A DNA stretch of 64,000 nt from Mesocentrotus franciscanus. Taxonomy: Eukaryota; Echinodermata; Echinoidea; Camarodonta; Strongylocentrotidae. The notes beneath the pieces were generated by a model. It was given only the letters and a program-made list of their open reading frames with translations, searched no databases and had not been told where the DNA came from. Shown here piece by piece: positions 14,801-59,390 of this stretch (its first letter is position 1; every line of letters starts with the position of its first letter). The DNA is taken from positions 25,235,906 through 25,299,905 of the forward strand of contig CP137668.1 in assembly GCA_037976565.1 (NCBI GenBank), given 5' to 3'. A program made the translations under genes and the position numbers.

Positions 14801-15296
14801 TGCAGCTTGGAACAGGTAGAATGCAATTACTTAATTGATGCAAGTGTGTAGGCAAAACAATCACCTATAATAAAGATAGACATTTTGGAACACGTACTGA
14901 CGTAAAATGCAGCTTGGAAGAGGTAAAATGCAATTACTTAATTGATGCAAGTATGTAGTCAAACGTCAAAATAATACAATACAAATATAGAAAGGCAATA
15001 ACTTATAATTGATGCAATTATAGATGTAATGAATGATTCAAAACAATACAAGTGTAGTGAAATACATATAGACCATGCAGGCTATACTATAGTTCAGAGG
15101 TGCTGAAATAGCCCAGGGAGGTGGGAGTTACTCCCACCTCCCTGAATAGCCTAGATAGTGTGCACAGCGTGTACGGTACATGTACAGCACACACGCCGTG
15201 CAGGCAAAGGCATAATGCATATTCATTAGGGGGCGTCGACATTTCTTCATGTAGTGACGTGCGCAGCCTACTAGATGTTCCAAAACATTGCCTACC
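11885..15296. mobile_element. Foldback transposon, copy 2, with 9-bp target duplication
   Basis: Same termini and subrepeats as the copy at 4637. Flanked by a perfect 9-bp direct repeat GATCTGAAC (11876-11884 and 15297-15305). The left arm runs to about 12545 and the right arm from about 14090. The middle (12545-13100) matches 5340-5880 of copy 1 in inverted orientation, followed by sequence absent from copy 1. No transposase ORF. A 31-bp hairpin element sits in the right arm (15114-15144). Confidence 0.92.
15114..15144. mobile_element. 31-bp perfect hairpin element with 7-bp direct repeats
   Basis: CAGGGAGGTGGGAG, loop TTA, then the exact complement: a 14-bp stem. Flanked by AATAGCC on both sides (15107-15113, 15145-15151). 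The same place in the left arm of this element (RC near 12019) and in copy 1 (7375) has one uninterrupted site, so this is a real insertion. A 37-bp relative sits inside the deaminase gene at 29018. Confidence 0.8.
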
Positions 15297-25988: not shown

Positions 25989-27690
25989 ATCATATCACCG
26001 GTGAGTTCAGATCAGTGTGTGTGTGTGTGTGTTTGAGTTTTTACAGACGTGTATCAATCAGATATGATTATTTACGTCTGGGACCGACCTTTAACGTCAC
26101 CATCCGAAAGACGTGACCAGGGCTCGAACCTCGAACCTTTGAATCAATTCGTAACTTCCCCACGCAGCTTGGATTACAGGCGCACGCCACAACGCCCAGT
26201 TGTACATGTAGTCTTTGCTGCAGCCCGGTTTTACTCACTTATCGTGAAAATGACGGAACTACAGTGTAAAACGTAAAGTCGCGTCCGGGCCCCCCGGGCC
26301 CCCCTGGATCCGCCACTGAATAGTAAAGTGGTGTCCATGACTAAAGTTAGCCCCCAATCGTGTAATTTTCGGCAAAGTTTAGTTATGCAAATTTTTATTT
26401 AATGCTTGATATGAAGAACCAAGTATATGTTCACCGTGAATAGCTGACAAGACTAGTAACACTAACTGAATCCGGAAATCGTCCATTTGTTTCTTTGTTC
26501 TTGTCATGAAATATACACTAAACATACAGGCCAAGTGCTGAAATTGTGCACTTTACAGAACAATACATACATAATATACAACCCAAGATTGAAATCAACA
26601 ACAGAAATACTGTCAATATCAAACATTAATATTTTGAAAATTCTAATTAAATTTTAAGCAGTTTTACAAAAAAATATCTTAACTCAATTATAAAAAAAGC
26701 CTGTGAGTTATCTTAGTAAATATCAGTTACCACTGGGTACTATTCGGTTGTTTGTTTGTTTTTAAGCGCTTTATATTATCCATGGGCGTACGGGCACATT
26801 TTTGCGAGGGGGCGGGCTGACATCTTTTCAGTTTCTTCATGCCCGAATTTCATGCGGTGGTTGGCTGAATTCGGAACATTAAAATCTGGGGGTGAAGCTG
26901 CAGTCGACCCCTAGCCACCGCCTACCCCCGCGCCTTTTGCCCCTATGCCATTATTACCATGATATTGGAGCTTCCCTATCCATGATTTTCTCTTGTATAA
27001 TAGGTCCATGCTTCCACCAAGCGGGGAATACCCACTCACTGCATATCATTACGCGATAGTCTTGTTTCGTGCCGTTTTGTAGTTAGGGAGTAATAGTATA
27101 GTCTAACAGATTTCCCAAAATTTCTATTATCGTCATTCATCTCTTTTGGTACAATTTGAATTAAAAAGCGATGGGAATAGGAAAAGTGGTCGCGTTGAAA
27201 CCCCGATAGAGATAGAGAGATAAATAAAACAGACTGTGGTGAGGTCACTCATTAATATAATTCCTGCGTCAATCGCAACGAAAATTGCCAATTCTATACA
27301 TTTCATTCAACAGGTCTTTACGTTTGATTTCGTTTCGTATGAATTATTCTTCATTGCTGTTAGATTTGAGGTTACGAGGCCTATTCATTATTTTGACTCC
27401 ATACGGCGCCATTGCTTGGCCTTTTAACGGGAAAAGATCGAAGATAGCAGCGAAGATTATATAACTTGTCGATGATTTTGAAAGGCGGTAAGAATCTTTA
27501 TCACTCTAATTTGATGTCAAAGGCTATAAGATTCCTGTCTTTTATATTCTTAGGAAGAATACCAAGGCTCCATCCGCTCGCGTCACATACCAGCGGAGAA
27601 GCGAAGCGCAAGAACGCGTACAGAAAGTAAAAGTGTTCACATCAATCCAATATTATCATGATAATATATACTACAAAATACGTTATCATG
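25989..27690. repeat. Direct duplicate B of the ~1.7-kb unit
   Basis: Counterpart of 1-1695, with sequence continuing beyond the shared end (27691 on). It includes the SINE at about 26046-26200 and the same short ORFs. Confidence 0.9.
26046..26200 (-). mobile_element. SINE with 7SL/Alu-like head (copy B)
   Basis: Same as 60-214, part of the duplicated unit rather than an independent insertion. Confidence 0.6.
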
Positions 27691-27894
27691 TAATAATAGT
27701 AATGATTTTGATCATAACCACGGCAATTGCTGTCGACATTGGTTCTACTTTTTTTTTGTGGGGGTAATTACACCTCTTACCCGAATATCAATGTTCTTTA
27801 AATATTGATAACTTTTGCCCCTTTCCAAACAAGAAAAATAAGAGAGATATTTTACAATTCAAAACGAAAATGTTCACTAATTTATCAAAAGTAA

Positions 27895-28375
27895 CGAGGG
27901 GAGCTTATCATATTTGAAAGGAGCACTTATCAGAGGACTGGTGAAAAGGAGCATTTATAAGAAGGGAAAGGGGCACTTATTAGAAAGAAAAAGGGGTCAC
28001 ATATCAGAAGGAAAAAGGAACTTGTTAGAAAAGAAAAGGGCAACTGTCCAGTAAACGGGTTACCTATCAGAAATGGATAGAGGCACTTATCGGAGGTGAA
28101 AAAAGGGCATTTATTAAAACAGAAAAAGGGGCACCTATCAGAAGGGAAAGGGAACTTATTAGAAAGGAAAATTGGTACGTGACAAAGTAAAAGGGCCACT
28201 TATCAGAGGTGAAATAGGGCCTTTATAAGAAGTGAAAGGGACACTAAATAGTCAAAGTGAAGGGCATCTATCAGATATGAAAAGGGGCACTTATGAGAAG
28301 GGGAAGGGGTACTCATTAGAAAGAAAAAAAAGGACACTTATCTGAAGTATAACAAAGTGGCCCTTTGGGGGTACT
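27895..28375. repeat. Degenerate ~30-bp tandem repeat
   Basis: Units of AAAGGGGCACTTATCAGAAG type repeat about 15 times, ending about 160 bp before deaminase gene 1. The complementary repeat is at 9545-9870. Confidence 0.75.
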
Positions 28376-28537
28376 TGGAAAAGTGTGGGGGCGTGGCCTC
28401 TGCCTATATTATGTCGGGACAACCAAACTGTCCAGACGCACAACGCGTGTGTATACGCCTGTGGTTTTAACGCCCTATTTATGGTTTTACTAAAACAGGA
28501 GTTCGAGTTCAGAAGTCATCTTACTGAATTCAAAAAA

Positions 28538-29350
28538 ATGGAGTTTAGTAGCAACACTGAGATGAACGGAGATGTTCATCGAGAGCGGCCTCCATGCTGT
28601 AGGGAATACTCGAGTTAAATGGAAGATTCCTGCAATGTGTGTCAGCATTGTGACGCTCGTAAGCGGAGCAAAAACACTCCTCATCCATAGGAGCGGGACC
28701 AGACATCACGCCGAACATGGAGTAATAACATTTATTGAAGAGAACATGAACAAAATAAGTTCAGTAAAGATTATAAGCAAATATTCACCATGTAGCAATC
28801 CTGGTGTCGACTGTTGCAGCAGAATTCGAGAGATCAAGGAAAAGCTGATGAAGGGTGATGGTAAGGAAATTAATTTTGAGTTGGTCTTTTCGAACTTTTA
28901 TAAAATAAACAGACCATCTTGTTTGAAACGAGGTTGCTTTGAGGGCAATGTGAGTGGACATACCCCAACAGAAGAACACGACGGCAGTATCGACAATCTC
29001 GTTTCACTTGGGTCAAGCAGGGAGGTGGGAGTTACAAAAAAATCCACCTCCCTGGGTCAAGTATCAGAAGCTTCGAAACAGGCGATTGGGCTGAGTTAAT
29101 AGAGCTCCTAGCTCTATGGGATGCTTCACATCGGGTGGCAGCGCCTGGTCTGGCAGCAACCCAGTTCGGAGACAAATACGGCCATTGGCGCGACTTTGAG
29201 GACGCCGAACTCAAGAGAGATTTTGAGATTTTAAAGCAGCGATTACAAGGAGTAACGAGAGTTACAGAAAATTCACTGCGCAACATTGACATAAAGATTT
29301 TAGAAAAAGAAGTTTCTAAAATTAAAGAGGCTTTAGCGAAGTTACACTAG
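28538..29350 (+). pseudogene. AID/APOBEC-like cytidine deaminase 1, interrupted
   Basis: Zinc-dependent deaminase of the AID/APOBEC type, which converts cytosine to uracil in nucleic acid. The segment 28572-29099 carries HAE (residues 46-48 from the ATG at 28572) and SPC...C (P73, C74, C81; PCx6C), the three zinc ligands plus the catalytic Glu. Relative to paralogue 2 there is a net 14-bp deletion just after the ancestral ATG at 28538, so only the ATG at 28572 opens the deaminase frame, shortening the N-terminus. A 37-bp hairpin element plus a 7-bp duplication (29011-29061) shifts the frame by two; the C-terminal segment DWAELIELLALWD ... AKLH (about 29084-29350) is therefore out of frame, and the open frame stops at 29097-29099. 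Single coding exon. The N-terminal part could still yield a truncated 175-residue protein. Confidence 0.75.
29018..29054. mobile_element. 37-bp hairpin element inside deaminase 1
   Basis: CAGGGAGGTGGGAGTTAC...CCACCTCCCTG: 11-12 bp stem with an A-rich loop, flanked by GGTCAAG on both sides (29011-29017, 29055-29061). Shares its first 18 bases with the element at 15114. Removing the element and one repeat restores a frame matching the paralogue (SLGSSIRSFE against SLGRSIRSFE). Confidence 0.85.
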
Positions 29351-29455
29351 ACCATTTAAAGACTAAAGGGGCAATTAAAGAGGGGGCAAGTCATGTAATT
29401 CAACAGAAGTTGAATATTATAATATTGATGATGATATTAAATATACTACTACTAG

Positions 29456-29488
<33 letters not shown>

Positions 29489-29920
29489 ATGATTATAATA
29501 ATATTATTGATAATGATCACAAAACTTATGTTAATCATAATGATAACTATAATAATACTGATCATGACGATGATAGGCGTAACAATAACAATAATGAAAA
29601 TAATTTATATATTTAGAGGAACCAACAAAACCAGTCCGAATCTAACGAAGTTATGCTAGTAATGTTATGTAAAGCGTATGCCAATTACATGTGCAAATAT
29701 TATTGTGGAATGATGATCAAAATATCTTATACTATACTATCATTACAATGTTTCGGTTTACTGAAAAAGCACATTTCTGGCAATTTTACTCACCACCAAA
29801 TTCATGGCGAACAGCGAATAAGGTTAGGCGAGTCATCTGCATGGGTATCACAAACTGAAAACGAAAGGGAGAGGGCACATTTGCGATGTATTATTAGCTC
29901 ATGCGCATTATCATGAAGTT
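29351..29920. other. No gene; (TAC)n-like simple repeat
   Basis: Contains an ACT/CTA triplet run at 29440-29485 and AT-rich low-complexity sequence. ORFs here are not gene-like. Confidence 0.6.
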
Positions 29921-29924
29921 TTTA

Positions 29925-30110
29925 AGCAAAGCATACCTGGCTGGAATAGCTGGCTGGCATACTCCCCAGGGAGTGGAGATTGTGCACACAGTGTGCGCGG
30001 GCAAGAATCAATGACCACGGAAATAGTATATCTGTAAAGCGCTTAGAGATATCGTAGATGTATTAAGCGCTATATAAAAGCGGAATATTATTATCATTAC
30101 TCTAGTGTTT
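29925..30110 (+). mobile_element. SINE/LINE 3'-tail-like element
   Basis: Contains TGTAAAGCGCTTAGAGATAT and later AAGCGCTATATAAAAGCGG before an ATT-rich end, a tail pattern common to many marine invertebrate retroposons. The 5' boundary is uncertain. Confidence 0.55.
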
Positions 30111-30380
30111 GCATTTATCGTGTTGTCAAAGCAACTTTTAGGTAAGGCATGACAATTTCCTTTAAAAATACATCACGATTGATTGAAGGAGATTATAGAC
30201 TTTTAAATTGTTTGCACTAACACAGTTAAAACACTATAAACAAAAACAAAAAGAATGAACCAACCGTAGTTCTTGCGTTTTGTAACCCATGAGCACTACA
30301 AATAAATGAATAATTAAATGTAAAGTTTATAATGTAATATATTGTACCGGTATATGAATGATTGCATATTGAAATTATCT

Positions 30381-30464
30381 GGGCCCTGTCTTATAAGAGT
30401 TGATATTAATCGCAACTTATTTACGATTGATATCAATCGCAACTATGTACATAAGACGGGGCCC
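30381..30464. mobile_element. 84-bp palindromic MITE
   Basis: GGGCCCTGTCTTATAAGAGT at the left and its imperfect complement (ATAAGACGGGGCCC) at the right, with inner inverted TTGATATTAATCGCAACT-like repeats. The whole folds on itself. Confidence 0.7.
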
Positions 30465-30499
30465 TGATGTGCATGCTATCATGGTTAGTTTATAGTCGA

Positions 30500-32030
30500 T
30501 ATTTCAAGTTTCAAGTTTCAAGTTTTATTTGTTCCACATTTTACAAAATATATAGATATAGGCCTACATATAAAATAAAAATTATACAATACATGTAGTA
30601 TATTATGAGCACGTCTCAATGATTCTTAATTCATATAATAGTTAGTAGAATGTGAGGAACCTATTAAAAAGCAGTGCTTTTATATTATATATTAAATATT
30701 GTAGATAAAAAAAGCCGTAGCAGTAGAGAAAGACGTAATTTAGACGGGAGAATTTAAAACACGATGGAATAAGGATATTTGTACACAAAATAATGCATTA
30801 GCACCAATACCCTGAGTCACCCGGTTAAAGTGCGTAGTCAAAATGCGCATAGTCACCCGAGCAATAAGTTAGAATAGCACAAAGTAATATGTTTTTATAC
30901 ATTAAAAAACCGGAACATACATCATTAATTAAATTAAGATTATGCCAAATTTCTGGAAGGCAACGTTTGTATTTTGCTATTCAGTTATAATTGATCTATA
31001 CAAAAAACATCACTGTAATACCTATATCTCGTATCTCGATTTCAATTTTCTTGGATAGTTTTAAGTCTTTCCCCTACCATGTTTAGTATTATCAGGATAC
31101 TACATTTTCTGTGTTTATAACCATTTCATTTTAGCTGTGCACTAGTCAAGGCCCGAGATCTGCTTTCATGAAAGCTAGAGAAAATTGAAAGTTTAAGAAA
31201 ATTCGACTAACGATTCTATTAGGAAAGTTGTCCACACAAAAAAAATCATTGATCAAAAACAAATGAGCAACTTTGTGATTTCGCTTGCAACCAGCCTTCT
31301 ATTGTTTTGTAGGAATATGAAATTATTAGATAATCCCTCCTTTTGGGGTGTTAATAATTATTGCGGAATTTAACTGTTTCATAGATTAAAAGAAAGATGT
31401 TAAAGGATCCATATTAGGGCCAAACAACACGCTCGAGGGAGTATACTATTATCAGAATCCTTGCAAGGTGTTAGGACTGGGAAAGATTTTCTCTATAATT
31501 CCTTTCAGAAGATGATAACAGTTTTATTTGAGGATAAACAAGAATTACAACAACAACAATTTATAGAAAAAGATAGATTTTGGGAAATTCTTTGTTAACA
31601 AAAATGAAAAGCTGCTCCCTTGGGAAATCACAAAATTGCAATGTTTGATGGAACCTAACATTATGCAAAAAAAAAATCACAATTTTGTCAAACTTTCACT
31701 GATTTCTGTCTTTCATGTTTTGTTATAAATTATGAAAGTAAATCTAATTCTAGGTGGATTTTTCTTTGCAGTTACGGAACGTAGCTATATTATGGGAAAG
31801 GTTATCTGACATAATTCACAATGTTGTCTCTTGTTTTGTACAAACTAATTTGTACGTAAATACTGTGATGAAGATGTTAAAACTCAGAACTTCCTCATAA
31901 TATTGAAATAAATATATTACTGAAAGGAAAAAGACAGAATAAACCTCTTTGTTATGTTCTGTACCGACTGTCATATGATTGTGTAGGCCTTCGTATATAC
32001 TATACTTTGGCTGCACTGAACCTTCTCATA
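30500..32030. other. No gene recognised (AT-rich)
   Basis: 30506-30600 starts with three AAGTTTC repeats and resembles a retroelement tail. The remainder is AT-rich with no exon or repeat structure that I can support. Confidence 0.45.
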
Positions 32031-32033
32031 GAA

Positions 32034-32159
32034 AAAAGTCCGGACGATAACCACATCAAGGCTGGACAACTAGCCCAATACAGCTACCTAGGAATATTAC
32101 TCACAAAAAGCTGCCACCTGGCAACCTCAACCCTCTCTGAATGTCTAAATTAATCCTCT
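32034..32159 (+). pseudogene. LINE reverse-transcriptase fragment
   Basis: One frame reads KSPDDNHIKAGQLAQYSYLG then ILLTKS...LSECLN, stop. The YSYLGILLT segment preceded by a polar stretch fits the late part of non-LTR retrotransposon RT domains (…YLGI…). Only about 41 codons remain; no start, no catalytic motif, 5' and 3' parts missing. Confidence 0.5.
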
Positions 32160-32164
32160 CGATG

Positions 32165-32475
32165 TTCAGACGACTAGGGTCTACTAAGGCAAATACGCCT
32201 TCACTCGATCCCCCCTTTTAAATTTTTTAAATTTTTAATTCTTTTATCTTACGGTACTTCATTTTGTGTATGTTTGGTGGTTTGTATTACCTGACTGCTA
32301 GGAAAGCATGTTTATGCTCGTAAGTAAGCAGCCAGAGGACCGTCTGCTTAATTCCTCTCCGAGGTACTTGGTAATTCGAATTGATGCCTTATCAAAGGCA
32401 CCAGCGCGTTGATTTGGTTTCGGACCCGGTCCTCCTGGCTACGAGACTATACCTATCTACCACCGAACCATATCG
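32165..32475 (-). mobile_element. tRNA-type SINE candidate
   Basis: On the minus strand: GGTTCGGTGGTAGATAGGTA, then a B-box-like GGTCCGAAACC, then GGTGCCTTTGATAAGGCATC and CTCGGAGAGGAATTAAGCAG. The order and the 'GCCTTTGATAAGGC' block match the general form of tRNA-derived SINEs in marine animals. Ends are approximate. Confidence 0.5.
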
Positions 32476-33049
32476 CGATTTGTTCTTTCATATATACACG
32501 TATATATTAATTAAACACATGAAAAGTTATCGAAATAATAAATAATTGATAATACAGGATGATGGGACGAGCCTGCAAATCGATGCAGTGATTGCGTATC
32601 TAAACTGACTAAACATACAACTGCCAGACATTGCGAAAGACCGGAATCGTCAGACGAGTGACGTTATCGGATTTTGCAACAATTCGTACACTTGGAGTTC
32701 TGGTGCGAATCGGTTGTGCCTCTGTTCTAAATTCACGATAACATATGATTTACTTACAACCAGGCCTGCTTACAACAATATGGATCAACAAATATAAACC
32801 AAAAAGTAGCCTAATTGTTTATCTCCTACCCTACAGAAAAAGAATGCAGTAAAAATAGAAATAATTCACATGACATTTTCCTTGACAATAAACGACTCGA
32901 AACACGACATCTAAATGTTTGGTGACTAAATAATTATATACGGAAGTTGGAATTCCCACAGCATACGAATTGTTTAAATATGCAAACACGGTATACCTGA
33001 CTATTGTTTTGTGCTTTCACCCGATCATTTCCTCTCCTAATCACTCATT

Positions 33050-33148
33050 GTTTTAATAAGTTGTCATTCTTGAGATATTTTTTTCCTTTTGTATTAAAAT
33101 TAATCCTCGCGTCAACAAATAGGAATCATCGTACGTTGTGAGGACTTG
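33050..33148 (+). other. Possible 5' non-coding exon of deaminase 2
   Basis: A strong donor TTG|GTAAGT at 33148/33149 and an acceptor (TTCTTGATCAG) before 33852 would join a leader exon to a 45-nt 5' UTR ahead of the ATG at 33897. Deaminase 1 has a similar acceptor-like AAAACAG about 45 nt before its ancestral ATG. Inferred only from splice motifs; the exon's 5' end is a guess. Confidence 0.3.
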
Positions 33149-34431
33149 GTAAGTTATTTTCTTCTTCTTAATATTTCATTTATATAAAAAGCTTTAGCGT
33201 CAATCAAGACGTGGTTGCTCAACCGAATCCTTTCTGTACCCAACACTAAATTCGAATATAGGAATACGGTTTTTATCGTGGATAAATCGCAACGTAATTA
33301 ATTTCTTTGCCAAATTGTTCTATATTTCTCGTAGGGCCTTTATTTACTTTTTTTTGTTTACAAAAGGGCCGGGAAAGAAAGACATTATCCCAATGTTTTT
33401 TCCACTGCAAAGATTAAATCCTCTGGAGACAGATCTTCATAGATCGTCAACTTCAGGGAAACTGTGAACGGTTGCCCGTCTTTGTGAAGAATACCATAAC
33501 TATTTGAAATAACTTACACATTAATGTACGAGGTATATCTGTGGGTGAATAGTGTTGTTTAAGCAAGTCAGCCACCTCGGTTGCTTATCTTTTCGACCAT
33601 TGATCTTTGCAAGTGTTTACACGCACTCATGACACTGTCAAAATTACGACTTGATAATAAAGTAATATCGTCAGCTGTCTGAGGTAGTGTTGCAACCAAT
33701 AGGATTTCATGATCGTTTGTTGCTCTTCTTGCGTTTATAAAATAATAATTTCTATCTTTGTTTATTGGGAGGGGAGAGCAAATGTATATAGACACATTAG
33801 TTTATGCTAGACATTAAGTTGATTTGGTGTACTTGTGCATTTCTTGATCAGGATAAAGAGCGGAACCGGGTACGAAGTTGATTTGCCAAACACAAGATGG
33901 AATACATCAGCAATACACAGCTAAACGGCGCGGAAATTTTGAAAATATTCGTCGAGAGCGGACTTCCCACCGTCGGAAATATGAGAGTCAACTGGACGAA
34001 ACCCGTTGTTTGTGTCTGTCATGTGACTTTCTTGAATTGGAGAAAGGCACTTCTCATCAGGCAGAACACACCCCTCTTACATGCCGAACATTTCATCATA
34101 GAGTTCCTTAGAATCAACATCCCAAGGATACGTTTCGTCAGGATTTTCTGCAACTACTCACCGTGCAGTAAACCAGGGTACGAATGCTGCAACTTGATTG
34201 GCAAGATCAAGGAAGATCTGAAGACCCAGGAAAGGATGAGGGGTGATGATGTGAGGGCGTCACTCACTTTCGTTTTTTCACACCTGTATAACATAGCGAG
34301 ACCATCTTGCTGGAAAAGAGGTTGCTTCGAGACGGGTCGAAACGAGCATATTCGACCTCAAGAAAACGACACCAGTTTGTGCAATCTCTGTTCTTTGGGC
34401 CGCAGCATTAGAAGCTTCGAGATGGCCGACT

Positions 34432-36716
34432 CAGCAGGGGTGTCGATCACGGGGATGGGGGATATATCCCCCAATATTTTAGGTGGGGGGATGGCCTGTA
34501 CAATCATCCCCCCTAATAATTCACCATCAAAAAAAAAAAAAAATGAAGAGAAAATTAACGATGAGAGCCCGATGAGAGTAGTTAATGGTTATTACTCGCA
34601 AGATGACCATCAATATACACACATATACGGCTTCATCACGAATTGATGAATTTATTCAATTTATTCAATCAACAGCATCATAGAAATGCAGTGCGCCAAA
34701 TGCAAAGCCGCAGCGTTAAAAAGCAACGAGCTAAATGTTAAGCGCGAAGCGCAAAAGTGCAAAAAGAAGTAGAAAGTGGGAGAGAGAGATAATGAGAGAC
34801 AGAGAGGATAATAACCCAGGTAGCAAGCCCATGTGGGACCCACATGGATCCCATATTCTCTGAAACATGGGCCCCATATGGAAAACCATCTGGGGCCCTA
34901 AGGCATCTGCACCCAAGAAGCATATGGGACCCATATAAGACAGATGGGACCCATACCAAACTGGGCCCAAATGGGTATGCCCAGCTTAATCCCATCTGGT
35001 ACCCATATTGGTTAACCCAGATATATCCCATGTGGGTTAACCCAGATTTTCCCATGTGTTACCCATATGGGCATATTCATATTCTACCAATATGTGTACG
35101 CCCAGCTCATTCCCATCTGGAACCCATAAGGGCTGGCCCGGATAGATCCCATATGGGTTACTAAATATTGGCCCCATATGGGATACATATATGGGTTCCA
35201 TTTAATAGCCCAGATGGCACAAGTGACCCAGATCATCCCCATATGGGCCCCATATGGGCTTGCTACCTGGGAAAAGGGAAAAGGGGAAGAAACGGGCAGA
35301 AGAAAAAGGAAGGGGAAGAGAAAAGGAAGAAAGACAAGAGAAAGAGGGACATATATATTCCAGCATTTCTTTCAGGGAACTGATGTGAATGGGCGATGAA
35401 AAAGAGGTTGACTTTAAAGTAACCTACAATGAAATATTGCTCATGTTTATTTCTTACAATGTCAAAATTACTTTACGGGATCCCCTCCTAAAAAGCTTAG
35501 GCATGGGTGATGGTAGGTATGAGGTTAATGCATGATCAGGAATTAGTTGAGTGGATGAAAAGAAGTGAGAAATAAGCTGAAAGAAACATGGAAAATTGCC
35601 ATGGAATGATGGAAGGCAATGTGAGACAGGCCCAACATGTTCTAAAACAAGTAATAATATTCAAGAATAGTTATGATTTCTTTCACCTAGGAGTTCTTCA
35701 AAAACTAATTAAAAACGAGTAAATAATCAATGTCACATTATTGACAGGGCTTAAAAGGAAAGTGAAAAGAAAAACAAGAAACAAAAAGATTGAATGAAAT
35801 TTGGGACTTTTTGTTTATAACACCCTTAATGCAATAATAATGCACCTTCTAAGACTGGTTATAGTTTTTGAAAAAAAATAGTGCTCTGGTCAGGGCCTTT
35901 TAATAGGGGAATATTATGCTTATATTTTAGAGCGTATCTGGTGTGATAAGTATATCTGGGTGAAGAAGGAGATAATGGAAGTTTGTTGTTTGGTAGTTGG
36001 AACGTAAGTTTTATATTATGTTTTTAAGAAACAGACAGTTTGTATGAGATCAGGAGTGGAAATTTTCTGTCATTTTGAGAACCAAATTTTGCATCAGTGA
36101 TATTCTGTTTCATTGAATTGAGTTTCCCGCAGAGAGGATTCAGTTGGTTTAATTAAAGAAGGAAGAGAGTCAAATGAAGAACCAAAAGCAATATGTTTTT
36201 CATTTACTAATGAGAACTATGTTTTTTGAGATCTCCTTACACAGAATATTGGAATGGGTTTTCACGATGAATGTTGTTTGGAGACATCAATATTCATAAA
36301 ATGTATGTTTCTATCACCAGGAAATAAAGAATTTTCTGTCTACATGAACCTTTCCTGGTTGCTTATTAATGCATTTGCCCACTGGTAACATAATACTTTC
36401 ACAAGTTGATATCCCTCACCATTGGATTTTTTTTGTTTGGTAATGTCTAAATTTCGTTTAAAAATAGATGATATCAGTCTGGTAGGCCTACACTGCAGGC
36501 AAGAGTCAGGACTAACATTTAGCATGTTATTAATTTTAGTACCACTCTTATATTCTCTGAAATGTTATCTTTATTGAGGGTGACTTGAAAAAGTTAATAA
36601 CTCGGGAGGGGGTGCAACCTGCCACACGCTTCTACCTCTTGGTTGCTTTGATCCATTGCCGAAAATATTTTGGCACCTATCATCCCCCCAACCACGGATA
36701 CAAATCGACACCCCTG
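34432..36716. mobile_element. Non-autonomous hAT element, copy 1 (in deaminase 2)
   Basis: Ends CAG-CAGGGGTGTCGAT and ATCGACACCCCTG, flanked by GCCGACT (34425-34431 and 36717-36723; an eighth base differs). Its inverted sister at 42829-45954 shares most of its length; this copy has internal deletions. Nested inside is the CCCATATGGG-tiled element (34815-35271). No transposase ORF. Near its right end is an ORF (from 36585) that reads through into the deaminase C-terminus. Confidence 0.85.
34815..35271. mobile_element. Nested element tiled with CCCATATGGG palindromes
   Basis: Terminal repeats CCCAGGTAGCAAGCCCAT and its complement. The interior consists of some twenty variants of the self-complementary decamer CCCATATGGG separated by short spacers, so it can fold in many registers. 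Also present in the sister hAT copy at 44523-45004, so it inserted before that copy was made. Confidence 0.8.
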
Positions 36717-37058
36717 GCCGACTGGGTGGCGCTGATTGAGTTATTGGCTCTTTTGGACACTAAACGCGGTGTAGAAACTGGTATTCTGACATCGTTTCGT
36801 TTTGGAGAGAAGTACGGCTTCTGGCGTGACTTGGAGGATGCAGAGCTGAAGAGGGACTTTCAAATATTAAAAGATAATTACAACGGACTATGAAATGCGC
36901 TCCTTTATCACAATGCCATTATAAACAAATCTCATTCTTGTGAGGGTAAAAAGGGTGTACTCTTTATGACCAAAAATACATAGTGTATCCCTGTTACAGC
37001 CAACATTAAATTGTGTAGAACTTTGCAGGAATAATGAATGTGTCACGTATGTCCTATC

Positions 37059-38356
37059 CAGGGGCGGCACCAGGTTATTTTTTTTAGGGGGCGAATGGGC
37101 CCCGGGGCTCAGATTTGGTTTGGACGGGTGTGTGCCGCTCAAGCCCTCGAAACCCCTACCCATTTTTAGGGGTCATTTTGGGGGATTTTTCGAAGTAAAG
37201 CCCATTTTTGACAATTTACGGGTGTTCGCATTGAAAATTTTGGAAATTTTGTAAAAACGGATCTATTATTAGGGTTATTTTTGTAAAAAATGGGACCCAT
37301 GTTTAGGATTTTTTGTGAAAAAGTGACCCATTCGATCGACACACCCCGTATGTCTTAACATGTGAGTCTCCCCTTCCCCCCTGTGGAATGGACTCGCTTG
37401 CGCGACGATGGAGATGTGCCCCGCTCAGAAGTGGAGGATTTTTGAAATTGATGCATAATGGTTCGATTTGGTGCATACTTTTTGCCAAATTAAAAAGAAA
37501 AGTTCAACTAACAAGAACAAGCTCAAATCAAATGTGGGCTGGCTTTAATACCTTTAATGATGGGAAATGCTAATGACAGCATCACAAACATGCACTACTT
37601 TTGATTTTCTTCTGTCAAAAGGAACTCCAATTTACGGGATGTTTTCGGGCGTCAATCACTTTGTTTATATCTATATCAATATCTCTGTTCAAATTTATAA
37701 CCAGAAGTGAAGACAAACGTCCTTGGGTCATTGTTGATCTCAACTTCTCAAGTACGTTTTCACCAATCGAAGTTCACTAAAATAATGAACGCTCAGCAGA
37801 AACACTAGTAAGTGCGAAGGTCACCATAATTTTCAGAAGGGTTTTTATAGATGAATATGTCGTTTCCTTTGAACAATCAGCCATGAGGTTTAGGAGATAC
37901 AAGGGATTAATTTGATTTTTTTCAGTTGGTGAAAGGTTCTTCATCGTCAACCAATGTTTGAACTGCCGGTAATGTGAATGTAATAATGACGCTTCTATTT
38001 CTGGATTAGGATGACTTCCATAGTTATCATTGACATGGGCGGGCAAAGGACTGTGTTCAGTCACTCAGTAGGCCTATAATAACTGCTAATAAGCTGATCA
38101 CCTGATTCGGCTTGCTTTTCTCTCCTTTTCTTTATTTTCTCTATCTTTATTTTTTTCTTTCCCTCTCCCCCGCCCTCCCTTACGTCATAAATATTTACAT
38201 TTTATAGTTCTCTTCCTCCTGGCCTTCCTCCTTCTCTTCCCCTTCCCTTTCTTTTCTTCTCCTTCTTTTCCTTTTCTTTTCCTTCTCCCTTTCTTCTTTC
38301 TCCTTCTCTTACTCTTCCTTTTTTTGAAAATGATAGGAGGCGGCCGGCCGCCCATT
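37059..38356 (-). mobile_element. Degenerate hAT transposon with 8-bp target duplication
   Basis: Left end CAGGGGCGGCACC, right end ...GGCCGGCCGCCCATT (imperfect complement), flanked by GTCCTATC on both sides (37051-37058, 38357-38364). Contains a minus-strand hAT transposase remnant. Most of the transposase is missing. Confidence 0.7.
37650..38064 (-). pseudogene. hAT transposase C-terminal (dimerisation) fragment
   Basis: Minus strand: an open frame ending ...LLKIMVTFALTSVSAERSLF at 37777, the conserved hAT C-terminal block (SxSAERxFS type), then a stop; after a frameshift the pattern continues as LRLVKTYLRS and, in another frame, STMTQGRLSSLLVINLNRDI, matching the RST…RLS…L…I..DI tail of the same domain. 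The N-terminal BED finger and catalytic core are absent, so it is dead. Confidence 0.75.
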
Positions 38357-38390
38357 GTCCTATCTGTGAAAGTTAAACATTAGCAGTGTG

Positions 38391-38603
38391 CAGGCGCGGA
38401 TCCGCGGGGGGAGAGGGGGTGGAGCGACGGGCCAGGGCCCCCACCCCTGGCAAAAAAGTTTTTAAAAAAGATGGTAACCACAAATTTACCTATGTTACTT
38501 AGTGCTCACACTACTCTACCCCCGCCCCCACTGACCGAAAGATCCGGCGCGATTTTCAAATTTCAGTCCCCCCCCCCATTGGAAAATCCTGGATCCGCCC
38601 CTG
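38391..38603. mobile_element. hAT-like MITE
   Basis: CAGGCGCGGATCC at the left, GGATCCGCCCCTG at the right, flanked by GCAGTGTG/GCAGTGTC (7 of 8). The same GGATCCGCCCCTG end occurs at 8141 and 62694. A short distance from the hAT fragment. Confidence 0.65.
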
Positions 38604-38619
38604 GCAGTGTCCTAGTATT

Positions 38620-40640
38620 CAAATTATGCAAGGAAACCCGTTTACTTTCTAGACTTCACTGTCAGACACTATTGAGTAACTGACTGACTTTTTTTTCTTT
38701 GGTAATAACGTACATAAAAATGAGCTGTAAAGGGTACATGAGCATTTGTCTACATCAATAACCCACTTCTCGTAATGGCCAAAATTAAACTGCTCGAAAG
38801 TTTGCGTAGCACAAAACGTACGACCATTCGGTACAAAGGGTCTGAAAATCAGACTATTTAATTAAACGAGCGCGCTCGGTAAATTCGATTCGACAACTAA
38901 CGGTCGTTATTTTCCCACAAAAAGACATTTTCAAGCCCTTTTGTTTGGAGGGAAGTTCTAAATTAGTTTTAGCTTTCAAATGCCGTTGGAATTTAACCTT
39001 TTCATTTGTTTTGCCTGCAAATGGGACATACTGCCTTTAAATGAGAGTATGCCCATTTGTGTTTTTTGTGTCTTTGGCATTTTCTTCTATGCATTCATTT
39101 ACAGACATGAGCATGTCATGACTTGCTTCACTGATTGTGTCCACCCCCTGAACTGTATGAGTTTGTAATGTATTTTCACATGTTTTAATGTATTTTACAT
39201 GTTTTTGACGTCTGTACAGCATAATAATTTTACTTGGTTTACCTGTATCACAATTTATCTTAATCTGTGGCTGGTATTCGTGAATGTGGATTTAGTAAAC
39301 CTGTTTAAATGGACCACTTGTTTATGGATTGCCAAGTGTCAAACTGTTTTTGTTCCGTAAAAGATGAAATTAATTTATGTGCAGAATGAGGAAACGAAAT
39401 GAATCCAATTACGAACCGAAAACAGGACATTTATTTCATGTAGAAATTAATTTTCTATATATTTAGTCACAGAATTGTGTTAATGTAAACGGAATGAAAA
39501 GATTGTCAGTGGGAGCACCATAGATCTTTAATTCTAGGTTTGGTTACTATATGTGAAGGTTTTTAAATTTGAACAATTTCGAAAATGACTTGCTGTAGAC
39601 CTATATCTTATATATATATATATATATATACATACATATGATGAATGATAATTGTATCAACTATATTACTGTAAAGCAAGTAGGCAAATCAGGGCACATT
39701 TACAAGATCAAAGTAAAACTTCAGAACAAAGATCGAACGCATCATAAAAATAATTCATATTTTAAACATTTCATTTCATAACTTCAATTATTTAGGCCCG
39801 GCAGACACGTGATGAGATTTACACTAGCATAGAAAGAAATTGATAAGAAAGGGGTGGAACCCTTTCGCAAGGAAGGAGTGAGGGAAACGAGGTCTGAAAA
39901 ATTGGCAGAACGAACTTAACGATGAGTCTGAATAGTCTACAATTATTACACTACATGATTCCCTTTAACTACAACATGACACACGATTTAGAATGATAGG
40001 CAGTGTAATTCAAATTGAATTTTTGTTTTAATCCCTTTGTAGTTCTCTATTTTGTAATTTTCACATTCAAATGGAACATTGCCATAAGTTTCAAACTTTA
40101 TTATTTATAAACACTTTCTCTACGATAATGTAATGATATAGGTTTTGTATTTATAATATTCTTGAGAAGGCAACGAACATAAAAAGAAAAAGGAGGTATG
40201 CATAAATATTGTATGAACTAGTCGAGATACAAGTTTGAATGATGCCATTATTAACATACATTATTTTTTCGTCAAGTTTTATATTGTCATTTTATCATGT
40301 TGATAGCATTATACGAATTGGGCCAGTCCAAAGTATTTGGTATTTGGTGCCCCATACGTCACCAAGTCGTCGTCAGTTGTGTCTTTCCACTTCATATTTT
40401 GGTCCGATAAAAGCTCTATAATATAGAAGGTCTATCGAGTATCGACTAAAAACCACGATCAGATATACTTACAAAATTATGAGAAGTGATATGTGACGTA
40501 TTGTACATAATACCTTTGACTTGATTGATTTTTGATAGATTGAAAGTTTTATCATCCTTCAAACTTCAAAGGCAGCCAGTGGCTGAATTGTGAAGATTTA
40601 CAATAACACATATTCAGCAAATGAAAAATTACATAGTTGC
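38620..40640. other. No gene recognised; (TA)n at 39610-39630
   Basis: AT-rich. ORFs at 38980 (62 codons) and 40239 (60 codons) have hydrophobic stretches but no family signature, splice context or repeat. Confidence 0.5.
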
Positions 40641-42828: not shown

Positions 42829-45800
42829 CAGGAGTGTCGATTTGTATCCGTGGTTGGGGGGATGATAGGTGCCAAAATATTTTCGGCAATGGATCAAAGC
42901 AACCAAGAGGTAAAAGCGTGTGGCAGGCCTTTGCACCCCCTCCCTTCCAAGTTATTAACTTTTTCAAGTCATGCACCCTCAATAAAGATCACATTTCAGA
43001 GAATATAAGAGTGGTAATAAAATTAATAACATGCTAAATGTTAGTCCTGACTCTTGCCTGCAGTGTAGGCCTACCAGACTGATATCATCTATTTTTAAAC
43101 GAAATTTAGACATTACCAAAAAAATCCAATGGTGAGGGATATCAACTTGTGAAAGTATTATGTTACCAGTGGGCAAATGCATTAATAAGCAACCAGGAAA
43201 GGTTCATGTAGACAGAAAATTCTTTATTTCCTGGTGATAGAAACATACATTTTATGAATATTGATGTCTCCAAACAACATTCATCATGAAAACCCATTCC
43301 AATATTCTGTGTAAGGAGATCTCAAAAACATAGTTCTCATTAGTAAATGAAAAACATATTGCTTTTGGTTCTTCATTTGACTCTCTTCCTTCTTTAATTA
43401 AACCAACTGAATCCTCTCTGCGGAAACTCAATTCAATGAAACAGAATATCACTGATGCAAAATTTGGTTCTCAAAATGACAGAAAATTTCCACTCCTGAT
43501 CTCATACAAACTGTCTGTTTCTTAAAAACATAATATAAAACTTACGTTCCAACTACCAAACAACAAACTTCCATTATCTCCTTCTTCACCCAGATATACT
43601 TATCACACCAGATACGCTCTAAAATATAAGCATAATATTCCCCTAAGGCCCTGACCAGAGCACTACTTTTTCTCAAAAACTATAACCAGTCTTTATAGAA
43701 GGTGCATTATTATTGGAAGGGTGTTATAAACAAAACTTCAAACTTAATAACATTCTAACTTTCAAAAACACCTTAACTATCTCATGCCTGTTACGTTTGA
43801 ATACAATACATAGGCCTACATCAGCTTTTCAATAAAACAAAAATAAGTTGTGACATAATCTTTCTCCAAAATATCGAACTGGAGTATTCTGTTGTATTGC
43901 TTTTTATGTACATACAAAGAGCTTATTTTCAAGAGGCACATTCTGCGCGAATGCCTGAGCTTGTAAATTTCGCGTATTGAAATTCACAATCAGTCCCAAA
44001 TTTCATTCAATCTTTTTTTGTTTCTTGTTTTTCTTTTCACATTCCTTAAAGCCCTGTCAATAATGTGGCATTGATTATTTATTCGTTTTTAATTAGTTTT
44101 TGAAGAACTCCTAGGTGAAAGAAATCACAACTATTCTTGAATATTATTACTTGTTTTAGAACATGTTGGGCCTGTCTCACATTGCCTTCCATCATTCCAT
44201 GGCAATTTTCCATGTTTCTTTCAGCTTATTTCTCACTTCTTTTCCATCCACTCAACTAATTCCTGATCATGCATTAACCTCATACCTACCATCACCCATG
44301 CCTAAACTTTTTAGGGAGGGGGATCCCTAAAGTAATTTTGACATTGTAAGAAATAAACATGAGCAATATTTCATTGTAGGTTACTTTAAAGTCAACCTCT
44401 TTTTCATCGCCCATTCACATCAGTTCCCTGAAGAAATGCTGGAATATATATGTCCCTCTTTCTCTTGTCTTTCTTCCTTTTCTCTTCCCCTTCCTTTTTC
44501 TTCTGCCCATTTCTTCCCTTTTCCCAGGTAGCAAGCCCATATGGGGCCATATGGGGATGATCTGGGTCACTTGTGCCATCTGGGCTATTAAATGGAACCC
44601 ATATATGTAACCCATATGGGGCCAATATTTAGTAACCCATATGGGATCTATCTGGGCCAGCCCTTATGGGTTCCAGATAAGAATGAGCTGGGCGTACACA
44701 TATGGGTAGAATATGAATATGCCCATATGGGTAACACATGGGGAATATCTGGGTTAACCCACATGGGATATATCTGGGTTAACCAATATGGGTACCAGAT
44801 GGGATTAAGCTGGGCATACCCATTTGGGCCCAGTTTGGTATGGGTTCCATCTGGGTCCCATCTGTCTTATATGGGTTTACCCATATGGGTCCCATATGCT
44901 TCTTGGGTGCAGATGCCTTAGTGCCCCAGATGGTTTTCCATATGGGGCCCATGTTTCAGAGAATATGGGACCCATGTGGGTCCCACATGGGCTTGCTACC
45001 TGGGTTATTATCCTCTCTCTACTTCTTTTTTTTTTGCACTCTTGCCCTTCGCGCTTAACATTTAGCTCATTGCTTTTTAACGCTGCGGCTTTGCATTTTG
45101 CGCACTGCATTTCTATGATGCTGTTGATTGAATAAATTGAATAAATTCATCAATTCCTGATGAAGCCGTATGAGCGAGAATTCAATTTATTCTTGTCTCA
45201 TATACGGTTGTCGCATTTACTTCGTTTTCCATTTATATATGTATGTATTATGAAAATGAGATAGCAAAATGTGTATATTGATGGTCATCTTGCGAGTAAT
45301 AACCATTAACTACTCTCATCGGGCTCTCATTAAAGGTAATGCAAAGTTTTGGGAAATTCTGAAATTGAATCGACAGTAATTCTTTAAATTTTTGAGATAT
45401 TTGGATGCCCCTGTGGATGTATAATAAGCACTAAAATAATTAGCCCCTAAAACACTTTTGCTTTCGAGCAAATTGAATAATACAAATTTACCGGTGCTCC
45501 CGGTAAATTTCAAATATTTCAAATAGCGCCTAAGGCCATTCCATGATAGCTGTGACCATGATAATCTCAGAATATGCAGTTCTAATATATAATTTCCAAA
45601 CGGGAATAGCAAATCGGTCGATTGTAGTCAAGAAACATTGTTTTAAAGCTAAATATCAGTCTTGAGAGGGCGCTGTACAACATAAAGAGTTTATTATTTA
45701 CAATTTCATCACTTTAGACTCGATTTCAACCGCGACAACGATCATCTAATATTGTAAAATCGCATATACTTCCAATATGTTCATTTGAACCAAATTCATG

Positions 45801-45954
45801 ACCCCATACCAAAACTTTGTAATACCTTTAATTTTTCTCTTCATTTTTTTTTTGTTTTGATGGTGAATTATTGGGGGGATGATTGTACAGGCCACCCCCA
45901 CCTGAAATATTGGGGGAGGGGATATATCCCCCCCCCCCGTGATCGACACCCATG
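42829..45954. mobile_element. Non-autonomous hAT element, copy 2 (inverted), with perfect 8-bp TSD
   Basis: Left end CAGGAGTGTCGATTTG, right end GATCGACACCCATG, flanked by TCCCTATT at 42821-42828 and 45955-45962. Relative to 34432-36716 it is inverted and about 840 bp longer (extra sequence near 45215-45840). Same nested CCCATATGGG element. No transposase frame. Confidence 0.88.
44523..45004. mobile_element. Nested CCCATATGGG-tiled element, second copy
   Basis: Inverted counterpart of 34815-35271, same terminal repeats, small differences in tile number. Confidence 0.8.
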
Positions 45955-50746: not shown

Positions 50747-51580
50747 CTACTCTTCAACAAGCAAGCAATCATCACTGTCCACATCAGCAGCACCATGGGA
50801 AGGCAGGTTTCTGTAAAACTCATGGTAGTGGACTGGAATGACATTCGATTGACACAGACTGAGCAAATCCTGCTTCTTTGCTGCACTGATCGGGAGCAAA
50901 GAAGTGTAAAGGCAATCAAGATGAGATCTCCTCATGTTCCTCTCTGAAGCAGACACCCTCAGCTCATGAAAAGGACCATCAAAATCAGATCTGAATTTAA
51001 TCAGAAGTGGTGATGACTTTTCAAAGTGGAAGTGTCTGATCCTAGACCACTGGACCTTTTGCCCGGACACATCACGCTGTGTATTTTGCAGAATGTCTGC
51101 TGCAAGCTTTTTCAAGTCATAGAAGTCCTCATAATGCAACTGGTGCACAATGTATGGCTTCTGTACCCTTGCCATTTCTGCAATCATGGTCCACTGATCA
51201 GGATGAAAAACCTGCATCTTTTTCTTAACACCTTCAATTGAACTGTGGATGGAGTCGACTTCCATCTGAGTATGACCTGGGGTTAAAAACTTCTGGTCAA
51301 TTTTACAGATAGTCGAAGTTCGTACAACGTGTAGGAGGGCAGCAGCTACATATTTATTCTTGTTCTGACCGCTGCATGAATCACTAAAAAGTGAAACATT
51401 GGTATTTTCAGGTGCCAGAGACTCTAAATGTTTCACCAGGCATGTGCCAATGTCATTGGCACCTCGTTTTCCATTTGTTTCGTCCCATACATAACAATGC
51501 CCTTCTCCATTTGCTTGATCATAAAGGCATAAATTGTACGTGGAAAGTTTTCTTTTGGAGAACAGGACAGAGGACGTAGA
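50747..51580 (-). pseudogene. DUF7869-type transposase-like gene, C-terminal part
   Basis: An open frame of 229 codons (51436-50747) with LFSDSCSGQNKNK, then FLTPGHTQMEVDSIHSSIE, the conserved Asp and DxxHSxIE blocks of a transposase-like family widespread in invertebrates that I know as DUF7869. The frame continues upstream past the first Met through YNLCLYDQANGEGHCYVWDE (conserved 'YN..iyd…cyxWdE' region), but a TAA interrupts it in the DL*QV motif near 51603. It ends with EFYRNLP, as in relatives. Probably a mobile-element-derived gene; inactive. Confidence 0.65.
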
Positions 51581-51700
51581 GGAAGGATATGAGAGGACCT
51601 GTTAGAGGTCAAATGTAAATGCAGCAATTGTTGGGCATGTCATTCATTGCCTCTTGCTTATCTCTCGCTTTTTCTCCGCGCGCTCTATCTTTATCCCTTA

Positions 51701-56696: not shown

Positions 56697-56985
56697 ACGA
56701 TATCCACTCGCAAACTTCGCTAGGCAACCTTTTACCGGGAAAATTTGTCGCTTTCTGTACGTACGTCCGCGCAAAGGTCGTGGGCTACTACGCGACCTTT
56801 TGCTGGGAATAAACTTGAGCGTTCGCGTGCCCACGACGTTTTGTTATTGGCTCACAACGTCATAATGACGTCATATTAGAATTCGCGAGTGGTACCAAAT
56901 TAAAGAGCACGAAAATCTCTATCAACGGACAACAAAGTTGAAAAGTGAAAATTTTATCAGAAATGTCCCTACGCGACGTTTTCTC
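56697..56985. repeat. Cluster of CGGCAAAACGTCGCGTAG-type repeats (right)
   Basis: Copies at about 56725, 56772-56812 (palindromic pair), 56832 and 56968, in both orientations. Partner of 46697-47076; together they bracket the DUF7869-like remains. Confidence 0.65.
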
Positions 56986-56989
56986 TCGT

Positions 56990-57735
56990 CCACGTCTTTT
57001 TGTTCTCTTTCTCTCTCTCTCTCCCTTTTCTCACTCCTATCTGGTCATACTCTCTCTCGTCCACGTCTTTTGTTCTCTTTCTCTCTCCCTTTTCTCACTC
57101 CTATCTGGTCATACTCACTCTCTCTCGTCCACGTCTTTTTGTTTTCTTTCTCTCTCTCTCCCTTTTCTCACTCCTATCTGGTCATACTCACTCTCTCTCT
57201 CGTCCACGTCTTTTTGTTTTCTTTCTCTCTCTCCTTTTCTCACTCCTATCTGGTCATACTCACTCTCTCTCGTCCACGTCTTTTTGTTTTCTTTCTCTCT
57301 CTCCCTTTTCTCACTCCTATCTGGTCATACTCACTCTCTCGTCCATGTCTTTTTGTTTTCTTTCTCTCTCTCTCTTTCCCTTTTCTCACTCCTATCTGGT
57401 GATACTCACACACTCTCTCTCTCTCTCGTCCATGTTTTCTCTCTCTCTCTCTCTCTCAATTTTCTCACTCCTATCTGGTCATATCACTCTCTCTCTCTCG
57501 TCCACGTCCTTTTGTTTTCTCTCTCCCTCTCCCTTTTCTCACTTCTATCTGGTCATACTCACTCTCTCGTCCATGTCTGTTGTCTCTCTCTCTCTCTTTC
57601 CCTTTTCTCACTTCTATCTGGTCATACTCTCTCGTCCACGTCTTTTTGTTTTCTTTCTCTCTCTCTCTTTCCCATCTGGTCATACTCACTTGTTCTCTCT
57701 CTCGTCCACGTCTTTTTTTTCTCTCTCTCTCTCTA
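56990..57735. repeat. (TC)-rich minisatellite, ~60-65-bp unit, 12-14 copies
   Basis: Unit: CTCTCTCGTCCACGTCTTTT, TCTCT tract, CTCACTCCTATCTGGTCATA. Small length variation (54-70 bp) among units. Long ORFs in several frames (up to 267 codons, poly-Ser/Leu) are products of the repeat. Confidence 0.92.
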
Positions 57736-59390
57736 ACCCGCAGTACATGTATAGCTCTGGCCTGCACCCGTCTTTCTGGCCTCCTCACTCCTTCTCTTGC
57801 TAGTTTGTAATTACCAAGGAATTCTGAGGCTGTTTGCCTGCAATGTTATCATAATTGTTCTTTCACCATTTGAGCTTTTTATTTAATCTCCCACATTTCT
57901 TCCACAGCACTCAATTCTCTGAATTACACTTTGTTAGTTTAATTCCTCATCTCTCTTTTCTTCAAAGCACCTCAATAATCTCCTTATTTCCTCAGTATAT
58001 ATCATCTCAAATTAATTTATAAGAAAAAATAAGCAATGCATACTGAATACAGTATTATTTAAATTTAATCATGAGTGAGTCTGCCATATTTGACAATTTT
58101 ACAGAAGTTATAAACAGACTGAAGAATTTACTAAACAGGGCAGTAACAAATGAAGTAAAGTTCTAACAGGCATTACTGTCAGCCTTAATTAATTAAAGTT
58201 TTTTTTTATAAAGTAGTCCTATTAATGCCAATTAGTCTCATATTTAAAAAAAAAAAAAATGGCAATTTATATAACTTAATTTGTTTTTACAATATACAAC
58301 TATTTTACAACAAAAATATACAAATTCATTGGATCAAAATATACAAATTCATTTCTGCTTGCAGCATGTTGGCAGAAGCACTGACTGGTTTCATCAGCTG
58401 TATGCTCAATCTGCAGAAGAGAAACAGACACAGAGAGAAGAAGAAAAAAAATGCTTGAAAATATTTGTACAAAAAAAAAAAAAATCACAGAAATGGTTAA
58501 TGAATTTGTTCCGTTTGTTGAAAAAAACTATACAAAAGTCACAAAAGACAGGAAGGGCTGTGCATATTTTCATAACTTGCAAAGATTTTCGAATTGCCCT
58601 TTTTATATATCACAATGCAGTAATGTCAATCTTATTTTTGTTTGGTATTACTTTACTGACATTTTAATGAACATTAGATCAACATTCAAATTAATTCAGT
58701 GACACAATTGTTCCATTTCATTTCATGAAAATAACTGTTTCTTAACTAAGCTAAATTGGATATGAGAGCCTCTCAGGATATTATATATATTCCTTCAGTT
58801 CATATATATTAGCATAATTCTCTTTAATGAAAAGGCGATCTTATTTTAGTACAATATAGAATGTAAGTCTACAAAGTAAAACCATCAATATTTTCAGGGT
58901 ATGGATCATTAAAAAAAATCTTACGGTATGATTCAAATGAATGTGACACAATATTCATTGGTATTAAATAACAACTGCTGTGTTATAAGCAATTCTTCAA
59001 CTATTGAAAGTACTATGCACCAGTTGCTGTCCTACAATGAAATTTCTGCAGGAGAGGACTCTATTTTACACTCAACACAATTCCATAACGGACTTAGCCA
59101 AGCTAAACTTCAACCATCTCTGGCTGTGTCTGGCAGGTGAAACATAGGCCTTATAAATCGTATTAATAAAATAAAATAACACATCAAAACTTTGTATATA
59201 GCTATGTCAGGCACAAGCAGCTAAAACAGAGGTCCTATTGATGCTGTGCACATCTACAGTCTTACATTTCAGACCCTGTAATATCTATTATGACTGGCAC
59301 AAATGTTTGTGCCTGGAAACAATTTTACTATATAGCCATAAGTACATTAAAACCTCACCTTCCATCCCTATAGCTAAGGGCCCTGCTCGT
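57736..59390. other. No separate gene; downstream of metallothionein
   Basis: The part adjoining 59390 probably includes the metallothionein 3' UTR (minus strand). I could not fix a poly(A) site. ORFs at 58225-58700 are AT-rich and unsupported. Confidence 0.45.

Follow-up and report, generated by a model that had tools for sequence, protein, structure and literature searches.

Do two neighbouring AID/APOBEC-like cytidine deaminase sequences in the sea urchin Mesocentrotus franciscanus represent working genes, and where in that family do they belong? Both lie within the 64,000-nucleotide stretch analysed here (the window; C3:25235906-25299905, as located by the genome search described below), for which a preliminary description had reported a pair of single-exon paralogues. 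We conclude, with a probability of about 0.77, that the two sequences, copy A and copy B, have decayed (they are pseudogenes in the present assembly) and belong to an echinoid AID/APOBEC cytidine deaminase clade. Computation shows the family membership, the predicted fold, the conservation of the zinc set, the lesions and the presence of intact sisters in the same genome.

Two linked copies and their lesions

A six-frame scan for H[ACPSVGT]E-x(20-40)-SPC-x(2-8)-C returned exactly two matches in the window, one in each copy, and none of 200 windows generated by a first-order Markov model contained the pattern. Both copies are on the plus strand, A at 28538-29350 and B, which is interrupted, at 33897-36893; their starts are 5,359 base pairs (bp) apart. 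This agrees with the paired HAE and SPCx6C motifs and the roughly 5.4-kilobase (kb) spacing first described; the flanking blocks RPSC.KRGCFE, LIELLAL.D and DAELKRDF.ILK were likewise each recovered in A as well as B. The parts of the two copies are as follows.

28538..28569, plus strand: start codon and first residues of copy A, MEFSSNTEMNG (comparison with sister A2)
28569..29013, plus strand: N-terminal and catalytic part of copy A, one open frame, EMFIESGL to NLVSLG (tblastn)
28707..28817, plus strand: zinc/catalytic motif of copy A, HAE-x24-SPCx6CC (six-frame pattern scan)
29018..29053, plus strand: 36-bp inverted-repeat mini-element with GGGTCAAG on both flanks (sequence inspection and sister comparison)
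29060..29350, plus strand: C-terminal part of copy A, SIRSFETGDWAELIELLALWD...DAELKRDFEILK..., with stop, in a frame different from that of the N-terminal part (tblastn)
33897..34434, plus strand: N-terminal and catalytic part of copy B, open from the ATG to the insertion (tblastn, pattern scan)
34080..34190, plus strand: zinc/catalytic motif of copy B, HAE-x24-SPCx6CC (six-frame pattern scan)
34435..36716, plus strand: 2,282-bp hAT-like element inside copy B, ends CAGGGGTGTCGAT / ATCGACACCCCTG (tblastn, repeats, sister alignment)
36717..36893, plus strand: C-terminal part of copy B, ADWVALIELLALLD...DAELKRDFQILKDNYNGL, with stop (tblastn)

Protein identity between A and B is 47% for the N-terminal and 57% for the C-terminal parts. 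Across 208 codons the copies differ at 73 first, 59 second and 109 third positions, with non-synonymous (dN) and synonymous (dS) distances of 0.39 and 1.79, respectively. Because the differences fall mainly at third positions and dN lies below dS, both copies were protein-constrained for much of their history; by codon position, this is the pattern that former coding sequence would predict. No third copy was found in the window by tblastn at E <= 0.01, using as queries the 14 proteins collected up to that point.

The single-exon structure did not hold: copy A is frameshifted by a 14-bp deletion and a 36-bp insert, and copy B is split by a 2,282-bp element. Given lesions in both, two single-exon genes were rejected, and "genes" overstates a pair that is broken in the assembly while intact sisters lie elsewhere in the genome. 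The deletion in copy A falls at 28569/28570, within codon 11, where sister A2 retains the 14 bp; it therefore leaves the ATG out of frame with the remainder. The 36-bp insert shifts the frame, so that the C-terminal part is read differently from the N-terminal part. This insert is common to A1 (the window copy) and A2, its right end is left in A4, and the site is empty in A3. The N-terminal part of copy A is identical in protein to A2 across 148 codons (0 non-synonymous changes, 1 synonymous) and, by tblastn, 80% identical to P0005 and 68% to P0008. A similar tiny insert (~31 bp) stands at ~15114-15144, with ends near-identical to those of 29018-29053 and a flanking repeat AATAGCC. Both inserts have a 7-8 bp direct repeat on either side and resemble transposon derivatives of extremely small size, which may still be mobile.

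Since copy B is interrupted at 34435-36716, the DAELKRDF block near 36840 joins it only across the insertion. The target duplication of the element, GCCGACTG, is at 36717-36724 (the left copy has two additional bases), and the empty site in B2 and B3 reads GAGATGGCCGACTGGGTGG. The element was skipped when the window was aligned with pairs 2, 3 and 4, and B1, that of the window, is the only one of the cluster's four B copies to have it. Its short terminal inverted repeats, and the duplication of 8 bp of target sequence seen around a second copy, fit the hAT superfamily. The longest open stretch inside it, 122 amino acids, is repeat-like by eye; no recognisable transposase was seen within the element, and the parent element was not searched for. 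A second copy lies on the minus strand of the window (42829-45954; 3,126 bp; main pieces 92.5% and 95.9% identical), bounded on both sides by an exact 8-bp duplication, AATAGGGA, and with one base changed at each end in the terminal repeats. Matching pieces were also found at C3:25340727-25343083 (minus strand). Within the copy B element, 34815-35271 holds CCCATATGGG-type repeats between 33-nucleotide inverted repeats that are 91% complementary, perhaps a nested element. A short open frame at 37777-38064 (minus strand) resembles the end of a hAT transposase by eye, with no Pfam match. Partial splicing of the 2.28-kb element in copy B was considered unlikely, although visual inspection shows a weak donor site and an acceptor that is in frame. 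Codon 24 of copy B (33966-33968) encodes proline, as it does in the intact-frame B2, and histidine stands there in all 8 other rows of alignment A6.

Sister loci in the same genome

One query, P0004, was searched against the 773-megabase (Mb) assembly of 21 contigs, so that the number of loci is a lower bound. The 26 matches were grouped into at least 20 loci, ten belonging to the clade with PCx6C zinc-cysteine spacing and ten with PCx2C. The PCx6C loci comprise four A+B pairs and two single copies.

C3:25235906-25299905: pair 1 (A1 + B1), the window
C3:25.306/25.311 Mb: pair 2
C3:25.367/25.372 Mb: pair 3
C3:25.517/25.510 Mb, opposite strand: pair 4
C3:39.41 Mb and C15:20.61 Mb: two single loci
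26283..39487 of the window: stretch common to the window and pair 2 (C3:25302989-25314133), A and B included, in four pieces of 94.9-98.5% identity

The search for intact relatives proposed at the outset was thus successful. Five of the ten PCx6C loci have an uninterrupted domain frame (B2, A3, B3 and the C3:39.41 and C15 copies) and five are broken (A1, B1, A2, A4, B4), where A4 is counted from its C-terminal part alone, its catalytic part not having been found. Unlike the window copies, the five sisters run uninterrupted from ATG to stop, and intact members are 234-264 amino acids long. The four pairs lie inside 253 kb, linked and in the same orientation within each pair. The 26283-39487 match (query, window 24000-48000; pieces of at least 300 bp beginning before 37500) reads as a recent segmental duplication carrying the A+B pair. 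Loci in this clade would be born by such duplication of the pair, and frameshifts and inserted transposons would end them.

Among intact copies of the same type, dN/dS is 0.43 for B2-B3, 0.75 for B3-C3:39.41, 0.82 for B2-C3:39.41 and 0.66 for A3-C15, values that would fit fast or relaxed evolution within each type; between the intact A3 and B3 it is 0.12, with dS saturated. Region-by-region counts of change by structure were too few to locate selection.

The ten PCx2C loci (L014-L023; C7:21.72-22.09 Mb and C2:27.98-29.47 Mb) are 26-39% identical to P0004 in the matches. They share with the PCx6C clade the domain, the RYG...W/R...ED C-terminal block, the R-x-SC...C motif and the tree grouping. 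They differ in their PCx2C spacing and in splice-like sequence ahead of the exon, whereas intact PCx6C frames open from their own ATG. A polypyrimidine tract and CAG stand right before the exon in 10 of 10 PCx2C loci, which makes an upstream exon likely. Eight of the ten were scanned against Pfam (all except L022 and L023), and all eight pass APOBEC_N, SNAD4 and NAD1; L017 is additionally above the cut-off of the bacterial Toxin-deaminase family. By alignment, all four zinc/catalytic residues are retained in six of ten. Residues are lost, with the frame still open, in C2_2 (E), C2_3 (H) and C2_4 (H and one C), and C7_4, with D at the H position and an H one residue before, was counted with the losses (4/10, three of the four in the C2 group). 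Such paralogues are possible pseudo-enzymes. The proline of SPC is replaced by serine in 6/10.

In a 28-row tree, drawn with a midpoint root for display only, with P0011 and pair 4 (L011) outside it and no APOBEC4 sequences among its rows, all 15 PCx6C rows, among them the long row P0010, group together (99/98). The 25 echinoid-type rows also form one group (100/99), with the PCx2C-type P0012-P0014 outside. A four-residue insertion between the zinc cysteines is a trait of the PCx6C clade, and most simply the PCx6C spacing had a single origin in the clade, through this insertion.

Family identity, predicted fold and known systems

The AID/APOBEC identity first proposed is supported by structural matches. 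For a model of an intact relative, AID/APOBEC occupied Foldseek ranks 1-49 among the 50 matches listed and accounted for 50 of the 50 VIA matches listed, as it did for the N-terminal part of window copy B (50/50 listed); there was no unrelated best match and, in the predicted fold, no displaced ligand. In the model, H62 and E64 lie at the start of helix 63-77, C97 and C98 lie at the start of helix 97-115, and C90 lies in the preceding loop, a predicted placement that is the AID/APOBEC arrangement. The predicted core runs b1 b2 a2 b3 a3 b4 a4 b5 a5 a6, so that helix 4 separates strands 4 and 5, and there are a few extra short elements. Residues C39, C98, C138, C143 and H151, invariant in 9/9 rows of alignment A6, could make up a second metal site or be joined in disulfides; model confidence is weak at residues 141-160 (block means 56 and 67). 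APOBEC3F, APOBEC3H and AID (11-14% identity to the modelled relative by VIA) have PCx2C spacing and are not known to contain a cluster like C138/C143/H151. Two relatives from Lytechinus variegatus support the echinoid origin.

Several observations weigh against the main reading. A profile search had been suggested as a check on the AID/APOBEC identity, and the outcome was divided: the structural matches are AID/APOBEC, and the window copies fall under the Pfam cut-offs. Against the 25-bit cut-off of APOBEC_N, copy A scores 18.7 and copy B 17.7, and their C-terminal pieces have no relevant Pfam match. Three of 11 individually scanned PCx6C proteins pass APOBEC_N (P0008, P0009, L012), and A3 (L010) has no Pfam family at E <= 0.01. 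Best Pfam matches scatter over APOBEC_N, APOBEC4, SNAD4 and NAD1, leaving the subfamily unsettled. A PDB sequence search with a PCx6C-only profile returned a designed triosephosphate isomerase (TIM) barrel and not a single APOBEC. Once P0012, a PCx2C protein, was included in the profile, APOBEC3G appeared at E 0.0018, ranked behind the designed TIM barrel. Finally, APOBEC4, itself PCx6C, was without deaminase activity in the tests described in passages of PMC4889046.

Other searches gave little. A phmmer search of copy B against PDB returned only an importin at E 0.5, P0012 as query recovered only itself and P0013, NCBIfam gave no match for the three proteins scanned, and Rfam gave none in the window. 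A viral origin was rejected, as 19 pattern-matching stretches in an IMG/VR scan included 0 encoding a relative; a viral structure library gave no match at E <= 0.001.

As decayed members of a deaminase clade, the window copies most likely contribute nothing to any defence role it may have. Intact members would bind zinc through H62, C90 and C97, with E64 as the proton shuttle, and would target single-stranded DNA or RNA, from viruses or mobile elements, for C-to-U deamination. This would take place in the cytosol, a location suggested by the MEY/MEF start and by a hydrophobic leader not being seen by eye. Their role may be defence, as proposed for the SpAIDL proteins.

These proteins, SpAIDL1-9, are the AID/APOBEC-like deaminases of Strongylocentrotus purpuratus, and sea-urchin AID/APOBEC-like genes, including frameshifted copies, are thus already published. 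According to PMC5956068, five of the nine loci are broken, SpAIDL1 and SpAIDL2 among five tested significantly raised E. coli mutation, transcripts peak in gut, and SpAIDL2 increases after Vibrio injection. The clade described here resembles them as an echinoid multi-locus family about half broken (5/9 versus 5/10 PCx6C loci). It is set apart by the published description of SpAIDL1 and SpAIDL4a, which are PCxxC and 193-194 amino acids long. The motif ranges stated in the relevant passages are H[AVS]E-x(24-36)-PCxxC (PMC5956068) and PCx2-4C (PMC11004436), and the x6 spacing fits only the wider PCx2-6C family range set by APOBEC4 (PMC4889046). The PCx6C clade, the A+B pair duplication and the PCx2C catalytic losses were not found in the open-licence papers searched, a scope that leaves the main survey, Krishnan et al. 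2018, outside.

AID-type mutators underlie vertebrate antibody diversification, and how innate antiviral enzymes gave rise to them is still an open problem. A sea-urchin clade of ten loci, half of them dead, in which the zinc loop is remodelled and the coordinates of intact pairs are known, provides directly testable enzymes, for which the PCx2C paralogues, some with catalytic losses, are a same-genome contrast set.

Alternative explanations and other features of the window

It is possible, if on balance doubtful, that the whole clade consists of pseudo-enzymes, in which the AID/APOBEC fold serves to bind nucleic acid or protein partners and deamination has been lost. The zinc-loop insertion is unusual, the inactivity of APOBEC4 cited above concerns a protein with the same spacing, and the open PCx2C frames with lost zinc/catalytic residues point the same way. 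Conservation of H62, E64, C90 and C97 in 15/15 PCx6C rows would, however, be unexpected if catalysis had been abandoned.

A rather improbable extension is that A and B, long-diverged deaminases that duplicate as a linked cassette, cooperate, whether by pairing as a heterodimer, by two-substrate restriction or otherwise. The SPC-S-x-x-G-x-x-C-C loop and C138/C143/H151 would then provide the clade with either a second metal site or an altered range of substrates, and the dN/dS of 0.43-0.82 would reflect conflict with viruses or transposons.

That the window copies still function, A as a short protein of 175 amino acids from an internal ATG and B ending in the element or with the element partly spliced, is unlikely. 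Open frames of 175 (28572-29099) and 249 amino acids (33897-34646) both include the zinc motif, and the A1-A2 comparison, with its single synonymous change, offers too few changes to discriminate. Against this, A would be without most of helix 1, and both would be without helices 5 and 6 of the intact fold; A3, B2 and B3 continue to the conserved C-terminus, and the lesions are private (the A1 deletion, the B1 element) or common only to broken copies (the mini-element). Decay of both window copies is the reading we retain.

Orthology to APOBEC4, based on PCx6C spacing, is very unlikely. The published motif, HxEx30PCx6C in passages of PMC4889046, bears out the remark in the preliminary description that APOBEC4 has a similar wide spacing; here the spacing is one clade's trait in an otherwise PCx2C family. 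P0004 and P0005 have APOBEC4 as their best Pfam family, but 0 of the 11 individually scanned PCx6C proteins reach its 27.2-bit cut-off (best 24.0, P0005), and from H to PC the window copies have a spacing of 24, against 30 in APOBEC4. As the nearest same-genome relatives have PCx2C, the PCx6C spacing is most simply of separate origin. Because PCx6C is simplest as a single four-residue insertion in this clade, the likeness to APOBEC4 is most likely convergent.

We give hardly any credence to secreted SNAD-type deaminases: SNAD4 and NAD1 matches (clades of Krishnan et al. 2018) are sub-threshold in PCx6C members and above cut-off in the scanned PCx2C paralogues, but among the individually scanned PCx6C members the highest SNAD4 score, 20.0 for copy A, falls short of the cut-off (27), and passages of PMC11004436 and PMC8201067 assign signal peptides to SNADs, SNAD4 to sponges only and NAD1 to vertebrates, whereas no signal peptide is apparent by eye in MEYISNTQLNGAEILKIF....

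Three further features lie elsewhere in the window.

1696-2195: 500 N in a row, probably an assembly gap
50747-51601, minus strand: open frame matching DUF7869 (E 7.3e-11), which may be a gene of a mobile element
56869-57803: long repetitive stretch with three overlapping low-complexity open frames

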